From Pseudodesulfovibrio aespoeensis Aspo-2 (GTDB lineage: Bacteria; Desulfobacterota; Desulfovibrionia; Desulfovibrionales; Desulfovibrionaceae), in assembly GCF_000176915.2 (NCBI RefSeq), contig NC_014844.1, positions 1,054,001 to 1,118,000 on the forward strand: a stretch of DNA of 64,000 nt, in the 5' to 3' direction. Below are positions 6,434 through 14,364 of the stretch, one piece after another (the stretch's first letter is position 1; the number at the start of each line of letters is the position of its first letter). A program made the translations under genes and the position numbers. The notes below the pieces were generated by a model. The model was not told the origin of the DNA. It did not search any database and saw only the letters and a list, made by a program, of their open reading frames with translations.

Positions 6434-8014
6434 CTAGTAGCGGCCCGACGGGGTGTCCGGCCACAGTCCCTTGAACCCCTTGCACAGGTGCAGGGTGAAC
6501 TTGCGCGCGGGCTGGCCCCGGAATTCGGCCTGGAAGTGGAGGGGCGGGCCGACCGACTCGAACAGGGCGTGGGCCTCGCCAGGGGCGTCGCCCTGATGCT
6601 CCTTGCGGACCATGATCGCGTCCCAGCCGGTGCGCTCCGCGCCGGGGCCGGGCCAGAGATCGTACTGGTTCATGCGCCGGTCCGGGGTCCACAGGCAGTA
6701 GGTCACGGGCTGCCCCGGCGTGTAAAAGGCCAGCTCCGCCGTCACATCGTACTTGTCGCTGAAGATGAAGACCTGGGCCGGATTGTCAAACTCGGCGTCC
6801 ATGAGCCGCTGCACCTCAAGGCCCAGCCCGTCCCACCCCTTGAGCCGGTTGGTGATGTTGTACTCGGCAGGCAGCGGGGCCAGGGGCGAGACAAAAATGA
6901 GCAGGGTCACAGCCGTGGCAATCCCGGCCAGCGCCAGCCGGGCTTTTTTCGTGCGCTCCGGGTTCTCCCACCATGCCTTGAGGGCCATGCCGCCCAGCAC
7001 GCTTGCGGCCATGAAGGCAACGGCGGTCCAGTTGGCCTCGGTCTTGGACTTGAGCGCCCACAGGGTGATCGCCCCCCACAGCGGCCAGAAAAAAAGGGCC
7101 GATTGCAGATCACGCCGGTACGCACGATCAAACGCGCCGATAGGCCCGAAAAAGCTCTTGCGCACCGCGCGCCAGCCGCCGATCATCACCAAAACAAACC
7201 ACCACGGCCCCAGTAGCCCGATCTGCGCCCCAAACATCTCCAGAAACGGGACGATGCGCAGGCTGAAAGGCTTTGGCTCGCCCGTGGACAGCCTGGCCAC
7301 ATGCCTGAAGCCCACCCAGTCGTGCTGCATGTTCCAAAGGATGATGGGCAGCATGCCCACGGCCACGCCGATCACGCCAGCCAGCACAAAGTTCCGCCAG
7401 AATCTCGGCGGCAACTGCCCGCGCAGATGGAGAATCACGGCATACACCTGGGCCAGGCCCATGAAGGCGAGCATCATGTACTTGGCCCAAATGCCCACGG
7501 CCAGACACGCCCCAAGCACCACGAATGGCACGCTCGACGGCACATGGTCCGGCCTGTTGCGCGTGGCCGCGGCCAGGGCGAAGAACCCCACGGTCCAGCA
7601 CAAAATAAGCGGATTGTCCGTGGTCATTAGGATGCCCAGCCCGCTGAACAGCGGCATGGTGGCGGCCACGAACAGCACGAACACCGCCAGCCGATACTCG
7701 CGCCAGACCCGCGAGACGCCCACGTACAACGCCGCCTGGATCGCGCTCATGCCGATCACCGAGCCGAACCGGACCCCAAGCTCGACACTGCCGAACACCT
7801 TGCACCACAGCCCGATGATCCCGGCTATGAGCGGCCCCTTGGAATAATACGAGAGCTGCGGCCTGCGAATCCAGTCCCAATACTGGGCCTCGTCCTGCAC
7901 CAGATTGAGCTGGCCCGTGGCCACAAACCAGTACCGGACCGCAAACGACACCGCGATCACCACAAAGGCGATCACGTCCAGACGCGGAGAATATGATTCA
8001 TTGATGGGCTGCAT
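6434..8014 (-). CDS. GT39-family membrane glycosyltransferase (ArnT-like)
   Basis: A 526-residue integral membrane protein with about ten to twelve hydrophobic segments and a short soluble C-terminal domain. The first periplasmic loop contains VQDEAQYWDW, matching the DE(A)xY catalytic-acid motif of dolichol- or undecaprenyl-phosphate-sugar-dependent transferases, and YYSKGPL follows, as in ArnT-like proteins. Such enzymes transfer sugars from a polyprenyl-phosphate carrier to lipid A, other glycolipids or proteins on the periplasmic side. No lipid A modification operon is adjacent, so the acceptor is unknown. It stands alone, convergent with the lipoprotein hydrolase gene and separated from the CBS gene by a large hairpin. 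Confidence 0.88.
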   Translation of the reverse strand: MQPINESYSPRLDVIAFVVIAVSFAVRYWFVATGQLNLVQDEAQYWDWIRRPQLSYYSKGPLIAGIIGLWCKVFGSVELGVRFGSVIGMSAIQAALYVGVSRVWREYRLAVFVLFVAATMPLFSGLGILMTTDNPLILCWTVGFFALAAATRNRPDHVPSSVPFVVLGACLAVGIWAKYMMLAFMGLAQVYAVILHLRGQLPPRFWRNFVLAGVIGVAVGMLPIILWNMQHDWVGFRHVARLSTGEPKPFSLRIVPFLEMFGAQIGLLGPWWFVLVMIGGWRAVRKSFFGPIGAFDRAYRRDLQSALFFWPLWGAITLWALKSKTEANWTAVAFMAASVLGGMALKAWWENPERTKKARLALAGIATAVTLLIFVSPLAPLPAEYNITNRLKGWDGLGLEVQRLMDAEFDNPAQVFIFSDKYDVTAELAFYTPGQPVTYCLWTPDRRMNQYDLWPGPGAERTGWDAIMVRKEHQGDAPGEAHALFESVGPPLHFQAEFRGQPARKFTLHLCKGFKGLWPDTPSGRY

Positions 8015-8066
8015 GATTGTGAAGAGTCAGGTATAATACCTCCGCCCCCATGGCAAGTGTGGACAT

Positions 8067-8165
8067 GCCTCCGGCGGCCGGGGGAAGGGAGCGGGGAACC
8101 TTTTGAGAAAGGTTCCCCGCTCCCTTCCCCCGGACCCCCATCCCTCACCCCTCCAAAACTTTTTA
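8067..8165 (+). repeat. Palindromic intergenic element, left copy
   Basis: A roughly 100-base element: it opens with GCCTCCGGCGGCCGGGGG, then forms a 23-bp perfect stem (8078-8100 with 8111-8133, loop TTTTGAGAAA), then reads GGACCCCCATCCC and ends in AAAACTTTTTA. The same modules occur in inverted orientation at 10845-11021. It lies between the CBS gene stop (8200) and the GT39 start (8014) and would act as a transcript-end hairpin for the CBS operon, although no T-run follows the stem on the minus strand. I recall similar hairpin elements as common after Desulfovibrio genes. Confidence 0.8.
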
Positions 8166-8199
8166 TGTCGCTTCGCGAGGGGCTTGGAGGGGCTGGCCG

Positions 8200-8595
8200 T
8201 TACAGCAGGTTGTTGTCGAGCACCAGCGACGAGAGGGTGACCACGCCGACGACTTCGCCCAGGTCTTCGACGGGCGCGCTGCGCACGCTGGTCCTGTTCA
8301 TCAGGCGGATCGCGTGGCGAATGTCCATCTTGGCCGGGACGGTGATGATCGGCTTGGTCATGATCTCGTAGATGCTGACGTCCTTGCCGTCGAGGCCGGG
8401 CACGATGACTTTCTTGACCAGGTCGGTGATGGTGACCATGCCCCAGGCGTCGTCATCGTTGCGCCGGGCGACCAGCAGCTCCGAGACGCGTGCGGTGCGC
8501 ATCATCGCGGCTGCGTCCGATGCCGTAGCCATACCGTCGATGCTCAGCACCTCTTTCTTCATGACATCGCCTACGCGCACAATGGGTGCAGACAT
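8200..8595 (-). CDS. Two-CBS-domain protein
   Basis: A 131-residue soluble protein consisting almost entirely of a tandem CBS (Bateman) pair: about residues 6-65 (VGDVMKKEVLSIDGMATASDAA... WGMVTITDLV) and 75-131 (IYEIMTKPIITVPAKMDIRHA... VVGVVTLSSLV). CBS pairs bind adenosine nucleotides (AMP, ATP, SAM) and regulate partner proteins, often transporters. It is the last gene of the minus-strand module DUF1538-DUF1538-PII-like-CBS, 48 bases after the PII-like gene, which suggests a nucleotide-sensing subunit for the membrane proteins. That role is inference. Confidence 0.9.
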   Translation of the reverse strand: MSAPIVRVGDVMKKEVLSIDGMATASDAAAMMRTARVSELLVARRNDDDAWGMVTITDLVKKVIVPGLDGKDVSIYEIMTKPIITVPAKMDIRHAIRLMNRTSVRSAPVEDLGEVVGVVTLSSLVLDNNLL

Positions 8596-8643
8596 GACTC
8601 CTCCTGTGCCGGGCCGATTTGGTCGGCGCGGTTCGATTGTCGT

Positions 8644-8991
8644 TTACAGATACTGTTCCCTGACTTCTTCCTTGAACCGTTCGATCTGGCTTTCCATGCC
8701 GATGACCTGCTCGATGGGCAGGACAAAGGCGATGCCGGTACCCGGCTTGTGGAATTCCCCCGCCTCTCGGATGGCCTCAAGGACGGGTTTGACGAGATGC
8801 TCCTCCAGCAGGAACATGACAATGTCGGTCTGATCTTCCAGGGCAAGGCCGAAGAAGGTCATGGCCTCGCGCATGCCTGTGCCGCGTCCGGGAATGATGG
8901 TTGCCCCGGTGGCGCCGACAGCCTTGGCCGCATCCACGATGGGATCGGTCTTATGCGTTTTGACCGGCGCGAGTATCAGCTTGAATTTCAT
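8644..8991 (-). CDS. PII-like regulatory protein
   Basis: A 115-residue protein with the PII ferredoxin-like fold pattern: strand MKFKLILAPV, helix TDPIVDAAKAVGATG, a shortened T-loop region IIPGRGTGMREAM, and the B-loop-like KPGTGIAFVLPIEQV. It has no Tyr in the loop for uridylylation. PII-like proteins bind nucleotides and control membrane transporters by direct contact. Its start, with a strong AGGGGGT site, lies 41 bases inside the end of the DUF1538 gene, so the two are tightly coupled. Context indicates a dedicated regulator of the DUF1538 pair, distinct from the canonical glnK at 25.6 kb. Confidence 0.88.
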   Translation of the reverse strand: MKFKLILAPVKTHKTDPIVDAAKAVGATGATIIPGRGTGMREAMTFFGLALEDQTDIVMFLLEEHLVKPVLEAIREAGEFHKPGTGIAFVLPIEQVIGMESQIERFKEEVREQYL

Positions 8992-9772
8992 GTTTTACCC
9001 CCTGAAATTTATTCTTTCTGCGCCCGGCAACCCATTGGGTCACCTGGGCGTATGCCATGACCGCGATGATCGGGAACAGGCTGGCAAAGGCGATGAGCCC
9101 GAAGCCGTCCAGGGCCGGGTTGCTTCCGGGCACGGCCTCGGACAAACCCAACCCCAGCGCGGCCACCAGAGGCACGGTGACGGTCGAAGTGGTGACACCG
9201 CCGGAGTCGTAGGCCAGGGCGATGATTTTTTTGGGCGCAAAGAACGTCTGTGCCATAACGACGACATATCCAACGAGAATATAGATATATAAGGGCGTGC
9301 CTGTGACGATGCGAAAGGTTCCGAGGGTTATCCCCACGGCCACGCCCAGGGCAACGGTGATGCGCAGCCCCCATTGGCTGATGCCGCCGCCCGAGACCTC
9401 CTTGGCCTTGAGGGCCACGGCCAGAAGCGTGGGTTCGGCGATGGTCGTGGAAAACCCGATCATGGCGGCGAAGAGATATATCCAGCCGTAGGCGGTCCAA
9501 TCGGAAGCGGCGGCCGCACCGCCCAGCAGGAAGGCGGGATCGGCCAGCTGTTCCGCCATGAGCCGCCCTATAGGAAACAGGGCTTTCTCGAGCCCCATCA
9601 GGAACATGGCCAGCCCGATGACCACATACACGCCGCCGATGATGAGGCTTTTGGGCCTGGGGATCGGGGAGCGCAGGACAAAGACCTGACACCCCACCAG
9701 CAGGACGACGATGGGCAGCACGTCGCGACACGTGGAGAGGAGGGCGGTGGCGAAATCTGTCAGAAAATCCAT
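8951..9772 (-). CDS. DUF1538 membrane protein (second of pair)
   Basis: A 273-residue polytopic membrane protein with about seven hydrophobic segments. Two motifs shared with the preceding gene stand out: GFSTTIAEPTLL near residue 95 and AYDSGGVTTSTVTVPLVAAL near residue 200, the latter in a probable re-entrant or pore-like stretch. I recognise this as DUF1538, a family without an established function; the repeated polar TTSTVTVP within a membrane segment suggests ion or solute transport (inference). It follows its paralogue by 23 bases and overlaps the PII-like gene. The C-terminal tail is basic and cytoplasmic in character. Confidence 0.85.
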   Translation of the reverse strand: MDFLTDFATALLSTCRDVLPIVVLLVGCQVFVLRSPIPRPKSLIIGGVYVVIGLAMFLMGLEKALFPIGRLMAEQLADPAFLLGGAAAASDWTAYGWIYLFAAMIGFSTTIAEPTLLAVALKAKEVSGGGISQWGLRITVALGVAVGITLGTFRIVTGTPLYIYILVGYVVVMAQTFFAPKKIIALAYDSGGVTTSTVTVPLVAALGLGLSEAVPGSNPALDGFGLIAFASLFPIIAVMAYAQVTQWVAGRRKNKFQGVKHEIQADTRAGQNA

Positions 9773-9795
9773 CTGGCACCTTGTCCTTGACGGTC

Positions 9796-10566
9796 TTAGC
9801 CGAAAACGATCAGTCCGTATCCGATGACGGCGATTATCGGAGCCAGCGCAGCTAAAGCTATAAGGCCAAAGCCGTCAATGAGTGGGTTGCGTCCTTTGAT
9901 AATTGATGCGACTCCTATACCGAGGGCTGCAACCAGCGGAACGGTCACGGTGGACGTGGTTACGCCGCCCGCGTCATAGGCGATGCCCACGATTGCCGCC
10001 GGAGCGAAAATGGTCATGATCATGACCAGTACGTAGCCGCCAATAATAAAATGTTGCACCGGCCAACCTTTCAAGATGCGAAGCACGCCGATCAGAATGG
10101 ATAATCCAGCTGAAAACGCAACCGACAACCTCAACCCAAGCGCATAGTTAGCCATTGCAGTTTCCCCTGAGGCGATAAAACCTCCCTGGGATACGACTCT
10201 GGCTGCCTCGGCTGATACGGCGATGAGGGCCGGTTCGGCCACGGTAGTCGAAAAACCGAGGGCAAAGGAAAAGGTCAGGAGCCAGAAAAGGCTACCCTTG
10301 CGTGCCAGGGCGTGCGCCATTTGCTCGCCGATGGGAAACAACCCCATCTCCAACCCCTGCATGAACAGGGTCAGCCCGATGATGACGAGCAGCCCGCCCT
10401 GCAGGACGCTGAATACGTCCGGCAGCGGTTGCCGGAGTACCACACCCTGGAAAAAGACGATGACCAGAATGATGGGCAGCAGATCCTTGAAGGAGGACCA
10501 CAACCTGCCCGCTATGATCCGGGAAAAGGTCCGGACCAGCATTGCCGTCCTGGATGTCTGGTTCAT
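9796..10566 (-). CDS. DUF1538 membrane protein (first of pair)
   Basis: A 256-residue polytopic membrane protein paralogous to the next gene. It shares LLPI at the start of the first segment, GFSTTVAEPALI and AYDAGGVTTSTVTVPLVAAL, so the pair probably arose by duplication and may form a two-half pseudosymmetric complex. About seven membrane segments. It is first in the four-gene minus-strand module, which must be transcribed from the gap 10567-10844. I see no convincing promoter there. The middle part of this gene (9850-10200) is somewhat less GC-rich than its neighbours. Function unknown; transport is the likely class. Confidence 0.85.
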   Translation of the reverse strand: MNQTSRTAMLVRTFSRIIAGRLWSSFKDLLPIILVIVFFQGVVLRQPLPDVFSVLQGGLLVIIGLTLFMQGLEMGLFPIGEQMAHALARKGSLFWLLTFSFALGFSTTVAEPALIAVSAEAARVVSQGGFIASGETAMANYALGLRLSVAFSAGLSILIGVLRILKGWPVQHFIIGGYVLVMIMTIFAPAAIVGIAYDAGGVTTSTVTVPLVAALGIGVASIIKGRNPLIDGFGLIALAALAPIIAVIGYGLIVFG

Positions 10567-10844
10567 GCTGTGCCCCGGCAGGGTGGGGTGGATGGCGGGT
10601 AGCCGTTGTTGGTATCCTTATGGGACATATCTGAGAAAATTCCTGTCACGGCGTGGTTTGGGGGCAAGCATCATTCTTTCCTGGCAGTTGAGTTCTTGAG
10701 TAGCCCTATGCGAATTATGCCCATTGCGTCAATGAGCATCGAAAACCGCGGGGCTTGCGCTTTGCGAAATCGCCAAGAATGAACCCAAGCCAACCTTGCC
10801 ATTTTCATCGAAAGCCTTGGTCAAAGTTGTTTTGTCCCCACGCC

Positions 10845-11021
10845 AAAAAGTTTAGGAAAAAGGGGGATGGGGGTCCGGGGAAGGGGGAAAAGAACCCTTT
10901 TCGACAAATCCGCAGGACAGCGGATTTGGACGTTGCGGCTGCCGCAACGCCCCGAAGGGGTGCGGGCCAAGGACGGCCCGCATCAAAGGGTTTTTTCCCC
11001 CTTCCCCCGGCCGCCGGAGGC
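10845..11021 (-). repeat. Palindromic intergenic element, right copy, multi-hairpin
   Basis: An inverted relative of the element at 8067-8165. It reads AAAAAGTTTAGG, GGATGGGGGTCC, then a near-perfect 26-bp outer stem (10875-10900 with about 10985-11010), and closes with CCGGCCGCCGGAGGC. Inside the outer stem lie further hairpins: AAATCCGC/GCGGATTT (10906-10927), CGTTGCGG/CCGCAACG (10931-10949), CCCCGAAGGGG (10950-10960) and GCGGGCC/GGCCCGC (10962-10981). It begins directly after the trpA stop (11029) and probably terminates the trp operon. The remaining gap 10567-10844 shows no gene. Confidence 0.8.
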
Positions 11022-11028
11022 ATCCCTC

Positions 11029-11790
11029 TTATTGCCACGGCTCCATGAACTGGGCGCTGGTGTGGCCGGTGGCGATGTGGGTGATGAGAGCGGAGCCGAA
11101 CACGGCGGCGTCCATGAGCCCGGTGAAGTTGGCGAGCTGGTCGGGGTGTTTGATGCCAAAGCCCAGCGCAATGGGGATGGTGAAGATGGAGCGCGCCTCG
11201 GCGAGTTTTTCGCGGATGCGTTCGGGCAGGGAGTCACGCTGGCCGGTGGTGCCCAGCACCGAGACGAAGTAGCAGAAGCCTTGGGCGTTTTGTGCGTAGA
11301 GGCGCATGCGCTCCGGGCTGGTGTTCAGGCCGATGAGCGGGACCAGGGCCACGTTGTGGGGGGCCATGGCCTGTTTGACGAAGTCGGATTCCTCGTGGGG
11401 CAGATCGGCGATGATCAGGCCGGAGACTCCGGCGGCGGCGCAGTCTGCGCCAAAGGCGTCGAGACCGTACTGGTAGACGGGGTTGAGGTAGCCCATGAGC
11501 AGCAGGGCGGCGTTGAATTGGCCTTTGCGCGCCTTGAGCCCGTCAAATATCCAGGTCAGGTTGATGCCGTCCTCAAGGCACTTGAGGGACGCTTTTTCCA
11601 CCACCGGGCCGTCGGCCACGGGGTCGGAGAAGGGCATGCCTATCTCGATGACTGCCGCGCCTGCGGCGTCGAGCTGTTCAAGTTCCTTCCAGAATTGTTC
11701 CCGATTGGGGAATCCGGCGGGCAGGAACGGGATGAGGGCGACCTTGCCCTTGGCCTTGGCTGCTTCTATTTTCGATTGCATTGGATTCAT
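11029..11790 (-). CDS. trpA: Tryptophan synthase alpha chain
   Basis: A 253-residue TIM-barrel subunit that cleaves indole-3-glycerol phosphate to indole and glyceraldehyde 3-phosphate; indole is channelled to TrpB. Diagnostic stretches are PFLPAGFP, the catalytic-Glu region VIEIGMPFSDPVADGP, and GFCYFVSVLGTTGQR. Length is typical (about 250-270). It is the last gene of trpEGDCFBA on the minus strand, 11 bases after trpB, and is followed by the large hairpin element. Confidence 0.96.
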   Translation of the reverse strand: MNPMQSKIEAAKAKGKVALIPFLPAGFPNREQFWKELEQLDAAGAAVIEIGMPFSDPVADGPVVEKASLKCLEDGINLTWIFDGLKARKGQFNAALLLMGYLNPVYQYGLDAFGADCAAAGVSGLIIADLPHEESDFVKQAMAPHNVALVPLIGLNTSPERMRLYAQNAQGFCYFVSVLGTTGQRDSLPERIREKLAEARSIFTIPIALGFGIKHPDQLANFTGLMDAAVFGSALITHIATGHTSAQFMEPWQ

Positions 11791-11801
11791 TGCATATTCT
11801 C

Positions 11802-12965
11802 CTAGAGGATGGAATCGACGATGCCCATGTCCTTGTCGCCGCGCCCGGACAGGCAGACGAGGACGGACTTGCCCTTGAGTTCTGCCCGGTGCTCAATGGC
11901 GTAGGCCACGGCGTGGGACGATTCGAGGGCCGGGATGATGCCTTCGCGCCGGGAGAGGGTCTTGAAGGCGTTGATGGCTTGGGCGTCGTTGATGGTCACA
12001 TAGGTGGCGCGGCCCGTGTCGTGCAGGTGGGCGTGTTCGGGTCCGACGCCGGGGTAGTCGAGGCCGGGGGCGATGGAGTGGGAGGGCTTGATCTGGCCTT
12101 CGGAGGTCTGGAGCAGCTTGGTTTTCATGCCGTGCAGCACGCCGTTGGTGCCGAGGTTGAGCGGGGCGGAGTTGTCGCAGCCCGGCTCGCCGGTGCCTGC
12201 GGCCTCGACCCCGATGATGGTCACCGAGGGATCGGGCACGAAGTGGTGGAACATGCCGATGGCGTTGGAGCCGCCGCCCACGCAGGCCACGACCACGTCG
12301 GGCAGCGCGCCGTTGTTGCGCTCCATGAACTGCTGGCGCGCCTCGCGCGAGATGACCTGCTGGAAGGTGCGCACCAGGGTGGGGAAGGGATGCGGTCCGG
12401 CTGCGGTGCCAAAGCAGTAGTGGGTGGTTTCCTGGTCCGAGAGCCAGCGGCGCAGCGCCTCGTTGATGGCGTCCTTGAGGGTCTTGGTGCCGGACTGAAC
12501 AGGCACGATTTCCGCGCCCATGAGGCGCATGCGGTTGACGTTGGGCGACTGGCGGACCACGTCGGTGGCGCCCATGTAGACGAGGCATTTCATGTCGAGC
12601 ATGGCGGCGGCCACGGCGGTGGCCACGCCGTGCATGCCCGCGCCGGTCTCGGCCAGCAGGGTGGTCTTGCCCATCATCTTGGCGAGCAGCCCCTGGCCGA
12701 GCGTGTTGTTGATCTTGTGCGCGCCCGAGTGGTTCAGGTCTTCGCGCTTGAGCCACAGGTCGAGCCCGAGGTCGCGCGAGAGGTTGGGGCAGTATGTGAT
12801 GGCCGAGGGGCGGCCCACGTTTTCCTTGAGCATGCCGATGAAGCGGGTCTGGAACTCCTCTGTGGGGAGGATGGTCTCCATGGCCTGCTCAAGCTCCAGA
12901 AGGGGCGGCATGAGCAGCTCGGGGATGAACTGGCCGCCGAAATCGCCGAAGTATCCTTTTTTCAT
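11802..12965 (-). CDS. trpB: Tryptophan synthase beta chain
   Basis: A 387-residue PLP enzyme condensing indole with L-serine to tryptophan in complex with TrpA. The N-terminus MKKGYFGDFGGQFIPELL and the PLP-lysine motif HSGAHKINN are typical of TrpB1, as are GGGSNAIGMF (phosphate-binding loop) and the C-terminal CLSGRGDKDMG. Length matches the family. It starts two bases after the trpF stop, consistent with tight operon coupling. Confidence 0.97.
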   Translation of the reverse strand: MKKGYFGDFGGQFIPELLMPPLLELEQAMETILPTEEFQTRFIGMLKENVGRPSAITYCPNLSRDLGLDLWLKREDLNHSGAHKINNTLGQGLLAKMMGKTTLLAETGAGMHGVATAVAAAMLDMKCLVYMGATDVVRQSPNVNRMRLMGAEIVPVQSGTKTLKDAINEALRRWLSDQETTHYCFGTAAGPHPFPTLVRTFQQVISREARQQFMERNNGALPDVVVACVGGGSNAIGMFHHFVPDPSVTIIGVEAAGTGEPGCDNSAPLNLGTNGVLHGMKTKLLQTSEGQIKPSHSIAPGLDYPGVGPEHAHLHDTGRATYVTINDAQAINAFKTLSRREGIIPALESSHAVAYAIEHRAELKGKSVLVCLSGRGDKDMGIVDSIL

Positions 12966-12967
12966 GA

Positions 12968-13594
12968 TTATTCCACCTTGTCGAGCCGGTCGAAGACCGC
13001 TCGCAGCTTTGTTTCGTCCTTGATTCCCGGTTGCGTCTCCACGCCGGAGTTGATGTCCAGGCCAGGGGGATTCACGGCCAGGGCAGCGTCGAGATTGTCC
13101 GGTCCAATTCCTCCAGCGAGAAACCAGGGTGTTTGTATTTCAATATGTTGCAGAAAGCCGAAATCAATGGACCGGCCTGTGCCGCCCTGGCCCTTGCCGC
13201 CCGCGTCGAGCAGGAAGTGGCCGCAGACTTCGGCGTAGTTTTCCATGTCGCGCAGCAGGGCCTCGGGCGAGGCGTAGGTCTCGGGCCAGAAGGTCCGGAT
13301 GACCCGGTCCGGCCCAACGGCCTCGCAAAAGGCCATGTCCTGGCCGCCGTGCAGCTGGGCCGCGTGCAGGCCGCAGCGGTCCATGATCGCCACCACTTCC
13401 TGGGCGGACTGGTTGACGAACACGCCCACCTTGACCACGCGCCCGGTCTTGACCGAGGCCGCGAAGTCCGGGTCGGCGTTGCGCGGGCTGGCCGGGTGGA
13501 AGATGAACCCGAGCAGATCCGCGCCGAGGCTAGTGCACAGGGCAACATCCTCCATGCGGGTCATGCCGCAGATCTTGATCAGCGGGCGGGCCAT
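12968..13594 (-). CDS. trpF: Phosphoribosylanthranilate isomerase
   Basis: A 208-residue TIM-barrel enzyme performing the Amadori rearrangement of phosphoribosylanthranilate. Motifs: KICGMTRMEDV at the N-terminus (catalytic Cys), GFIFHPASPR, QLHGGQD, and LAGGIGPDN near the end. The frame is open 48 codons further upstream, but that extension reads as an off-frame shadow of trpC. The ATG at 13594 overlaps the trpC TAA by one base (TAATG), a classic coupled start. Confidence 0.95.
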   Translation of the reverse strand: MARPLIKICGMTRMEDVALCTSLGADLLGFIFHPASPRNADPDFAASVKTGRVVKVGVFVNQSAQEVVAIMDRCGLHAAQLHGGQDMAFCEAVGPDRVIRTFWPETYASPEALLRDMENYAEVCGHFLLDAGGKGQGGTGRSIDFGFLQHIEIQTPWFLAGGIGPDNLDAALAVNPPGLDINSGVETQPGIKDETKLRAVFDRLDKVE

Positions 13595-14364
13595 TACGCG
13601 ATGCCTGCCAGTTCGGCCAGGGTCTGGCCGGGGTTTTTGGCCTGCATCAGGCTGGTGCCGATGAGCACGGCGTCGAAGCCGAGGGCCGCCATCTCCTCCA
13701 CCTGGGCGCGGGTGGACACTCCGCTGGCGCTGATCCACAGCTCATTGTCCCGTTTCTGGCGGATGAACTTGCGGCTCTGGTCCAGGGTGGTGGTCAGGGT
13801 GTCCAGGTCGCGGTTGTTGACCTGGATGATGTCTGCCCCGGCCTCGCGGGCCGTGTCCAGGTCCGCCTGGTCGAATATCTCCACCACCGGGGCCAGGCCG
13901 GGCATTCGCGCCAGGTCCACCATCTGCTTCAGCTCCTTGGCCGAGCCGAACATGCGCGCGATGAGCAGCACTGCCGAGGCCGGGCTGGACGCGGTCATGG
14001 CCACCTGGAGCGGGTCGAAGATGAAGTCCTTGCGCAACAGCGGCAGACCGGGGCCGGTCATCAGGAACAGGGAGTCCGGATGGCCGCCGAAGTAGACGTG
14101 CTCGGTCAGCACCGAGATGGCCGCCGCGCCGTTCTTGGCGTAGATGTCAGCGAAATCCAACGGGTTGGCGTTTTCGCGGATGACGCCCAGGCTGGGGCTC
14201 GACGGCTTGAACTCGGCGATAACGGCTCCTGGCCCCTTGGCCCGGATGGCGTCGACGAACGAGGGGCGCTCGCCCTGGTACATGGCGGGCACGCGGCCCT
14301 CAATGAAGTCTTTGCGCAGGCTGTCTATCTCTGCCTGCTTGGCTTCCCTGAATTTATCCAGCAT
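13594..14364 (-). CDS. trpC: Indole-3-glycerol phosphate synthase
   Basis: A 256-residue TIM-barrel enzyme that closes the indole ring from carboxyphenylaminodeoxyribulose phosphate. The substrate-binding motif IAEFKPSSPSLG is present near residue 53, along with LLRKDFIFDPLQV (catalytic lysine) and VNNRDLDTL. Monofunctional, not fused to TrpF. Its start overlaps the trpD end by 11 bases. Confidence 0.96.
   Translation of the reverse strand: MLDKFREAKQAEIDSLRKDFIEGRVPAMYQGERPSFVDAIRAKGPGAVIAEFKPSSPSLGVIRENANPLDFADIYAKNGAAAISVLTEHVYFGGHPDSLFLMTGPGLPLLRKDFIFDPLQVAMTASSPASAVLLIARMFGSAKELKQMVDLARMPGLAPVVEIFDQADLDTAREAGADIIQVNNRDLDTLTTTLDQSRKFIRQKRDNELWISASGVSTRAQVEEMAALGFDAVLIGTSLMQAKNPGQTLAELAGIA

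Follow-up and report, generated by a model that had tools for sequence, protein, structure and literature searches.

A four-gene locus of Pseudodesulfovibrio aespoeensis Aspo-2 raises the question of what two adjacent and related membrane proteins of the DUF1538 family transport, and what a PII-like protein and a two-CBS protein encoded directly beside them contribute. The locus lies on the minus strand of a 64,000-nucleotide stretch of the genome (NC_014844.1, positions 1,054,001 to 1,118,000), which is referred to here as the window and in which all positions are counted. It probably encodes a cation/proton antiporter that is gated by a dedicated PII-like protein, with a CBS protein providing a second input in some clades.

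The four-gene locus

The four genes are present on the minus strand at the coordinates reported by a first-pass annotation made from the sequence, as are the overlap between the PII-like gene and umpB, which is exactly 41 bases (8951-8991), and the two motifs that it had named in both DUF1538 paralogues. The genes are as follows:

9796..10566, minus strand: umpA-like DUF1538 membrane half A, 256 amino acids (PF07556, E 1.7e-65; NCBIfam UmpA); predicted N-in/C-out from loop charges
8951..9772, minus strand: umpB-like DUF1538 membrane half B, 273 amino acids (PF07556, E 9.9e-66; NCBIfam UmpB); predicted N-out/C-in from loop charges
8644..8991, minus strand: PII-like protein, 115 amino acids (P-II PF00543, E 2.1e-10; PII fold)
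8200..8595, minus strand: two-CBS protein, 131 amino acids (PF00571, E 1.2e-21, two stretches)

The two DUF1538 paralogues are approximately 46% identical to each other and score 220.7 and 221.5 bits against PF07556, for which the Pfam gathering cut-off is 22.6. The PII-like protein belongs to the PII family by sequence (41.3 bits against PF00543, cut-off 25), and the two stretches found by Pfam in the last protein make up a CBS pair. Within the genome of the organism, a single contig of 3,629,109 bases, the umpA-like and umpB-like genes are the only two matches to DUF1538, and the PII family has five matches, of which the PII-like gene scores lowest (40.7 bits).

Identity of the membrane pair

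The best NCBIfam match is the UmpA model for half A and the UmpB model for half B, which describe the subunits of a Na+,Li+,K+/H+ antiporter. Half A scores 341 bits with UmpA (cut-off 490) and only 198.5 with the model of the other subunit, and half B scores 301 bits with UmpB (cut-off 500) and 195.7 with the other-subunit model; as in UmpAB antiporters, the A and B halves of the locus are distinct from each other and encoded side by side. The first-pass description of a transporter made of two half-proteins and linked to PII-like and CBS proteins is borne out, but its statements that DUF1538 had no assigned function and that the substrate was unknown need correction, as the pair best matches UmpA and UmpB, for which Na+(Li+,K+)/H+ exchange has been published.

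In the available text of the paper that introduced it in 2017, UmpAB of Halomonas zhaodongensis is a two-component Na+(Li+,K+)/H+ antiporter whose genes jointly restore the salt and alkali tolerance of E. coli KNabc, and whose subunits form a heterodimer with pH-dependent exchange that is optimal at pH 9.0 (PMC5484666). Both systems consist of two adjacent homologous DUF1538 genes with seven predicted segments per half, though the halves of the window score under the cut-offs given above. The activity in E. coli came from a construct without a PII or CBS gene, so these sensors were not needed for transport there, and the words PII, P-II and CBS, like any PII or CBS gene, topology or antiparallel packing, are absent from the available text (PMC5484666). 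Homologues of UmpAB in saltwater lineages are mentioned in the accessible parts of two papers on cable bacteria. No paper linking DUF1538 with PII was found in the open-licence literature, a scope outside which most subscription journals fall; one candidate that contains both terms in its available text (PMC7221264) was rejected, as 'PII' there stands for the letters of a protein motif.

Probable opposite orientation of the two halves

The positive-inside rule was used to orient UmpA and UmpB across 180 A-B pairs, which are related sequences from which only exact repeats of half A were removed. With segments set from the helices of the UmpB model, a charge score was taken as the lysines plus arginines (K+R) in the N-terminus, L2, L5 and L7 minus those in L1, L4, L6 and the C-terminus. 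This score is positive in 179/180 A halves and negative in 178/180 B halves (179 and 177 when acidic residues are subtracted), and the alternating split on which it is built separates A from B best, ranking first of the 35 splits of eight segments into two groups of four. The same polarity is found in fused proteins, where A halves are positive in 31/32 plus 1/1 cases and no B half is positive. The two halves carry the opposite K+R bias for which dual-topology pairs are the precedent.

By this rule, UmpA is predicted to adopt an N-in/C-out and UmpB an N-out/C-in topology, and because their loop-charge patterns are opposite, the halves are probably packed antiparallel. Only 8-40 residues separate the A and B profile matches in 25 of the 33 fused proteins, and such direct fusion of two halves with an odd number of segments would impose the same opposite orientation as that given by the loop charges. 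PsmrAB, a paired small multidrug-resistance antiporter, resembles this arrangement in having two homologous halves that need co-expression, but UmpAB has seven segments per half and, in the available text of its authors, no sequence kinship with PsmrAB (PMC5484666).

The UmpB model, with a mean predicted local distance difference test (pLDDT) score of 93.2, contains two broken helices (92-111/114-126 and 181-196/199-213). Glu113, at the break of the first, and Asp189, in the second, are invariant in alignments A1 (20 rows) and A3 (90 rows), and in both A and B types. Their codons, placed by these alignments and the UmpB model, are:

9434..9436, minus strand: codon of Glu113 (UmpB), break of the first broken helix, motif GFSTTIAEP
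9206..9208, minus strand: codon of Asp189 (UmpB), second broken helix, motif AYDSGGVTTSTVTVP

A Foldseek search of the UmpB model against the PDB returned no match at E <= 0.001, with UmpB-normalized template modeling (TM) scores of at most 0.22 among the matches listed (50 of 170), although weak Foldseek matches of a model do not establish that its fold is new. A PDB profile search with DUF1538 likewise gave nothing at E <= 1. An internal repeat within one half was considered and rejected: profiles of the N-part and C-part matched no better than 30 column-shuffled controls, and the resemblance between the two motifs therefore does not count as evidence for one. A model of a fused A-B protein was also abandoned, as UmpB sequences were aligned to the N-half in alignment A2, being 46-53% identical to the fused protein; the fused alignment was therefore not used, and UmpB was modeled alone.

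Linkage of DUF1538 to PII

Conservation of the gene order was examined in 80 loci, the best 80 of at least 589 confirmed DUF1538 stretches in a species-genome collection. A PII-like gene lies directly 3' of DUF1538 in 79 of these, and a CBS gene is present in 68; among the 12 loci without CBS, L052 and L067 end at most 75 bases past the PII gene and L047 also lacks PII. As the best 80 favor the branch of the window itself, wider surveys were added, each of which counts its own center, and three of these centers, plus G301, were known beforehand to hold DUF1538. In the organism's own phylum, DUF1538 occurs in 18/297 genomes, with PII downstream in 15/18; the corresponding figures are 20/240 and 19/20 for the class of an Aliiroseovarius record (G304), and 10/247 and 9/10 for the phylum of a record titled Bacteroidetes (G302). 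In the order of an Aliamphritea record (G297), where the UmpA model served as the query, 82/390 genomes matched, and PII lies downstream in 30/30 of the best 30 of the 82. The PII misses across surveys include two contig ends (L021, L203), a locus in which our DUF1538 profile finds no match (L024) and a match under the family cut-off (L227), and CBS is under-counted at loci with 1.5-kb flanks.

Plasmid loci from Alphaproteobacteria and Clostridia have PII downstream in 7/7 cases, drawn from nine matching records, and five annotated ones read 'DUF1538 domain-containing protein' followed by 'P-II family nitrogen regulator'. The linkage spans Desulfobacterota, Gamma- and Alphaproteobacteria, records titled Bacteroidetes, and Clostridia, at protein identities as low as ~26-30%. 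Recurrence of the order DUF1538-DUF1538-PII-like-CBS across genomes had been put forward in the first-pass annotation as a check, and the order does recur far beyond chance, although CBS is confined to part of its range: PII is the near-constant partner of DUF1538, and CBS is restricted to some clades.

Co-occurrence was followed in 78 related genomes, the organism's own included, which do not represent independent events. A PII-like profile was built from 79 linked proteins and applied at E <= 1e-10, a threshold set to exclude ordinary PII proteins. DUF1538 is found in 39/78 genomes and the PII-like profile matches 39/78, and these are the same 39 genomes; the two matches are at most 440 bases apart in 39/39, with coordinates checked in all and 15 fetched as loci. 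Within the genus, DUF1538 is patchy (20/36 genomes).

The core of a DUF1538 system is two DUF1538 halves together with PII domains, and the remainder is variable. Besides the architecture of the window (split A and B, one PII, CBS), there are systems with A-B fused, one PII and CBS; systems with A-B fused or split and either a tandem-PII protein or two PII genes; and systems in which fused A-B with a longer middle stretch stands beside a protein of up to three PII domains. A and B share one chain in 33 of the 180 pairs.

Several further arrangements were seen. Three-PII-domain proteins lie beside fused DUF1538 proteins with a long middle stretch at L159, L160, L164 and L236, and a single chain of three PII domains could make a whole PII trimer alone. 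In two genomes, PII, umpA, umpB, PII, CBS, fused umpAB, PII and CBS follow one another consecutively (L147 2570-7600, L149 2544-7551), giving two modules and three PII-like genes in each. UmpB and PII form a single 387-residue frame in one genome (L198 2173-3333, identical to L216 1432-2592), a single case that may reflect either a genuine gene fusion or an error in the sequence. The DUF1538-PII systems L166-L172 are on records called plasmids, of which one was typed conjugative and another mobilizable, with an IS66 element nearby.

The PII-like and CBS proteins as putative regulators

The model of the PII-like protein (pLDDT 84.7) matches PII/GlnK structures with a Foldseek probability of 1.00 and a TM-score of ~0.7, and the protein has the PII fold. 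It departs from GlnB and GlnK at the residues K90, R101 and R103, which we take, with these numbers, to bind the ATP phosphates in canonical PII: each is present in 0/79 PII-like proteins, and the B-loop glycines are retained in 78/79 and 79/79. The column of Y51, presumably the canonical T-loop tyrosine, holds T in 33, A in 13, V in 9, S in 7 and G in 7 of the 79, and tyrosine ranks outside these five most frequent residues. Compared with the GlnB-type protein encoded in the same genome, the PII-like protein has a shorter T-loop region. Owing to the loss of K90, R101 and R103 and the shorter T-loop, classical ATP/2-oxoglutarate sensing appears doubtful, and AMP, ADP, cAMP and bicarbonate may be considered as candidate ligands. 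Cyclic di-AMP (c-di-AMP) was rejected as a general ligand, its cyclase family being found in 0/14 genomes carrying the module; in the order of the window this family is present in 75/78 genomes, and c-di-AMP remains a candidate there.

The annotated start of the PII-like gene appears credible, because the start methionine (M1) is the same in every one of the 79 sequences of alignment A4 (weak support, as the starts of the 78 homologues were chosen near the domain start) and the following hexamer lies just 5' of the ATG:

8998..9003, minus strand: AGGGGG within umpB, a possible ribosome-binding site for the PII-like gene (read from the sequence)

PII-fold proteins that are encoded with or act on a membrane transporter are familiar from GlnK-AmtB and PII-NrtBCD, and chains of both complexes (2ns1, 8wm7) are among the fold matches of the PII-like model. 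The locus differs from these in that the transporter is a DUF1538 pair, the T-loop is shorter, K90, R101 and R103 are gone, and tyrosine is not one of the five leading residues in the Y51 column. A dedicated PII-like partner is likewise found in SbtA-SbtB, where the transporter carries bicarbonate, and possible adenylate sensing is a further likeness; on the other hand, a PDB sequence search with the PII-like protein gave 38 matches, none of them a chain named SbtB, and the DUF1538 transporter matches no PDB sequence by profile search. Among solved structures, CBS-CP12 of cyanobacteria is the nearest relative of the two-CBS protein (E 3.9e-20), and it binds AMP according to the available text of a review (PMC9406205). 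This kinship suggests nucleotide binding by the two-CBS protein, which differs from CBS-CP12 in having no CP12 tail and in being encoded beside a transporter.

Proposed mechanism and alternatives

In the gated antiporter that we favor, UmpA and UmpB, as homologous halves in opposite orientations, would together make a single antiparallel transporter that moves Na+ (or Li+ or K+) in exchange for H+. Its cytoplasmic face would include the C-terminus of UmpB and the positively charged loops of that half, and on this face the PII-like protein would dock, gating transport by means of a small molecule bound in its clefts, and the CBS-pair protein, as an accessory of some clades, would supply a second, adenylate-type input. 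Because the published umpAB was active alone in E. coli, the most likely role for the PII-like protein is that of a brake or tuner rather than of a required subunit. The conserved travel of the pair with its own PII-like, and often CBS, sensor suggests an exchanger whose activity is switched according to cellular state.

Several observations weigh against this proposal. The equivalog cut-offs of UmpA and UmpB (NF041627, NF041628) are missed by both halves, a result tempered by the UmpA cut-off being passed in 0/390 genomes of the order of G297, where the best score is 428 bits. One locus (L047) has umpAB and no PII within 669 bases downstream, and another (L023) is a partial DUF1538 gene without PII. 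Among relatives, 3/42 PII-like matches are extra copies, of which two (G751, G739) lie away from the DUF1538 pair and one (G755) beside a DUF1538 fragment, and CBS is absent from many DUF1538 systems.

The missed cut-offs would also fit a PII-regulated transporter whose substrate here is something other than Na+ or K+ (bicarbonate, an organic ion or a different cation); the antiport seen in Halomonas would then not be general to DUF1538. The wide variation of DUF1538 systems in architecture and PII number is compatible with such a transporter, as is the fact that the best-known PII partners transport nitrogen or carbon compounds. We nevertheless regard another substrate as less likely, since each half prefers its own subunit model by the scores given above, Glu113 and Asp189 are invariant in both half types, and UmpAB homologues are reported, in the accessible parts of those papers, in saltwater cable-bacteria lineages.

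The one-to-one tracking of DUF1538 by PII in the 78 genomes, its retention through split, fused and tandem architectures, genes that overlap or almost abut, and the one UmpB-PII frame together make it improbable that the PII-like and CBS proteins act on some other enzyme or transporter and are merely co-expressed with the antiporter, even though CBS is dispensable in many systems, the two extra PII-like copies in relatives lie away from the DUF1538 pair, and contact between PII and UmpAB is something that we infer. Least probable is a transfer cassette whose genes stay linked only through recent horizontal spread and are not functionally coupled; although the presence of the module within the genus is patchy and plasmid copies exist, the linkage extends across all of the groups named above at the low identities noted there.

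Gene neighborhood

Upstream of the module on the minus strand, frames 11029-14364 resemble genes that we take, by eye from their translations, to be trpA, trpB, trpF and trpC; the module is therefore not within a nitrogen-assimilation operon. Scans of 7950-11100 found promoters (1 vs 1.3 in shuffles) and terminators (4 vs 2.7) about as often as in shuffled sequence. Two strongly folding inverted-repeat elements bracket the module, both containing GGGTCCGGGGGAAGGG: the left at 8073-8138 (arms of 31 nt, complementarity 94%, loop of 4 nt) and the right at 10869-11015 (arms of 31 nt, complementarity 81%, spacing of 85 nt), with fold z-scores of -8.9 and -8.6, respectively. With up to 2 mismatches, this sequence has 4 matches in the 64-kb window against 0.16 expected, all of them in the two elements, and with up to 1 mismatch it has 5 matches genome-wide. 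Given related copies elsewhere in the genome, the bracketing inverted repeat looks like a dispersed repeat.

Implications for PII control

PII proteins gate ammonium and nitrate transport, and SbtB gates bicarbonate uptake. We tentatively propose, and hold this less firmly than the reading of the locus itself, that DUF1538 may constitute a transporter class of its own, with antiparallel seven-segment halves, a fold unseen in the PDB and, nearly always, one to three dedicated PII-like domains, and that it may be the first family of PII-gated cation/proton antiporters, linking adenylate/carbon status to salt and pH homeostasis. Antiparallel packing would account for the need for both genes and for the frequent A-B fusion, and a confident UmpB model without a PDB relative makes this a structure worth solving. 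If the proposal is true, the published activity of UmpAB would be that of an unregulated core, and PII control would extend to ion and pH homeostasis in several phyla.

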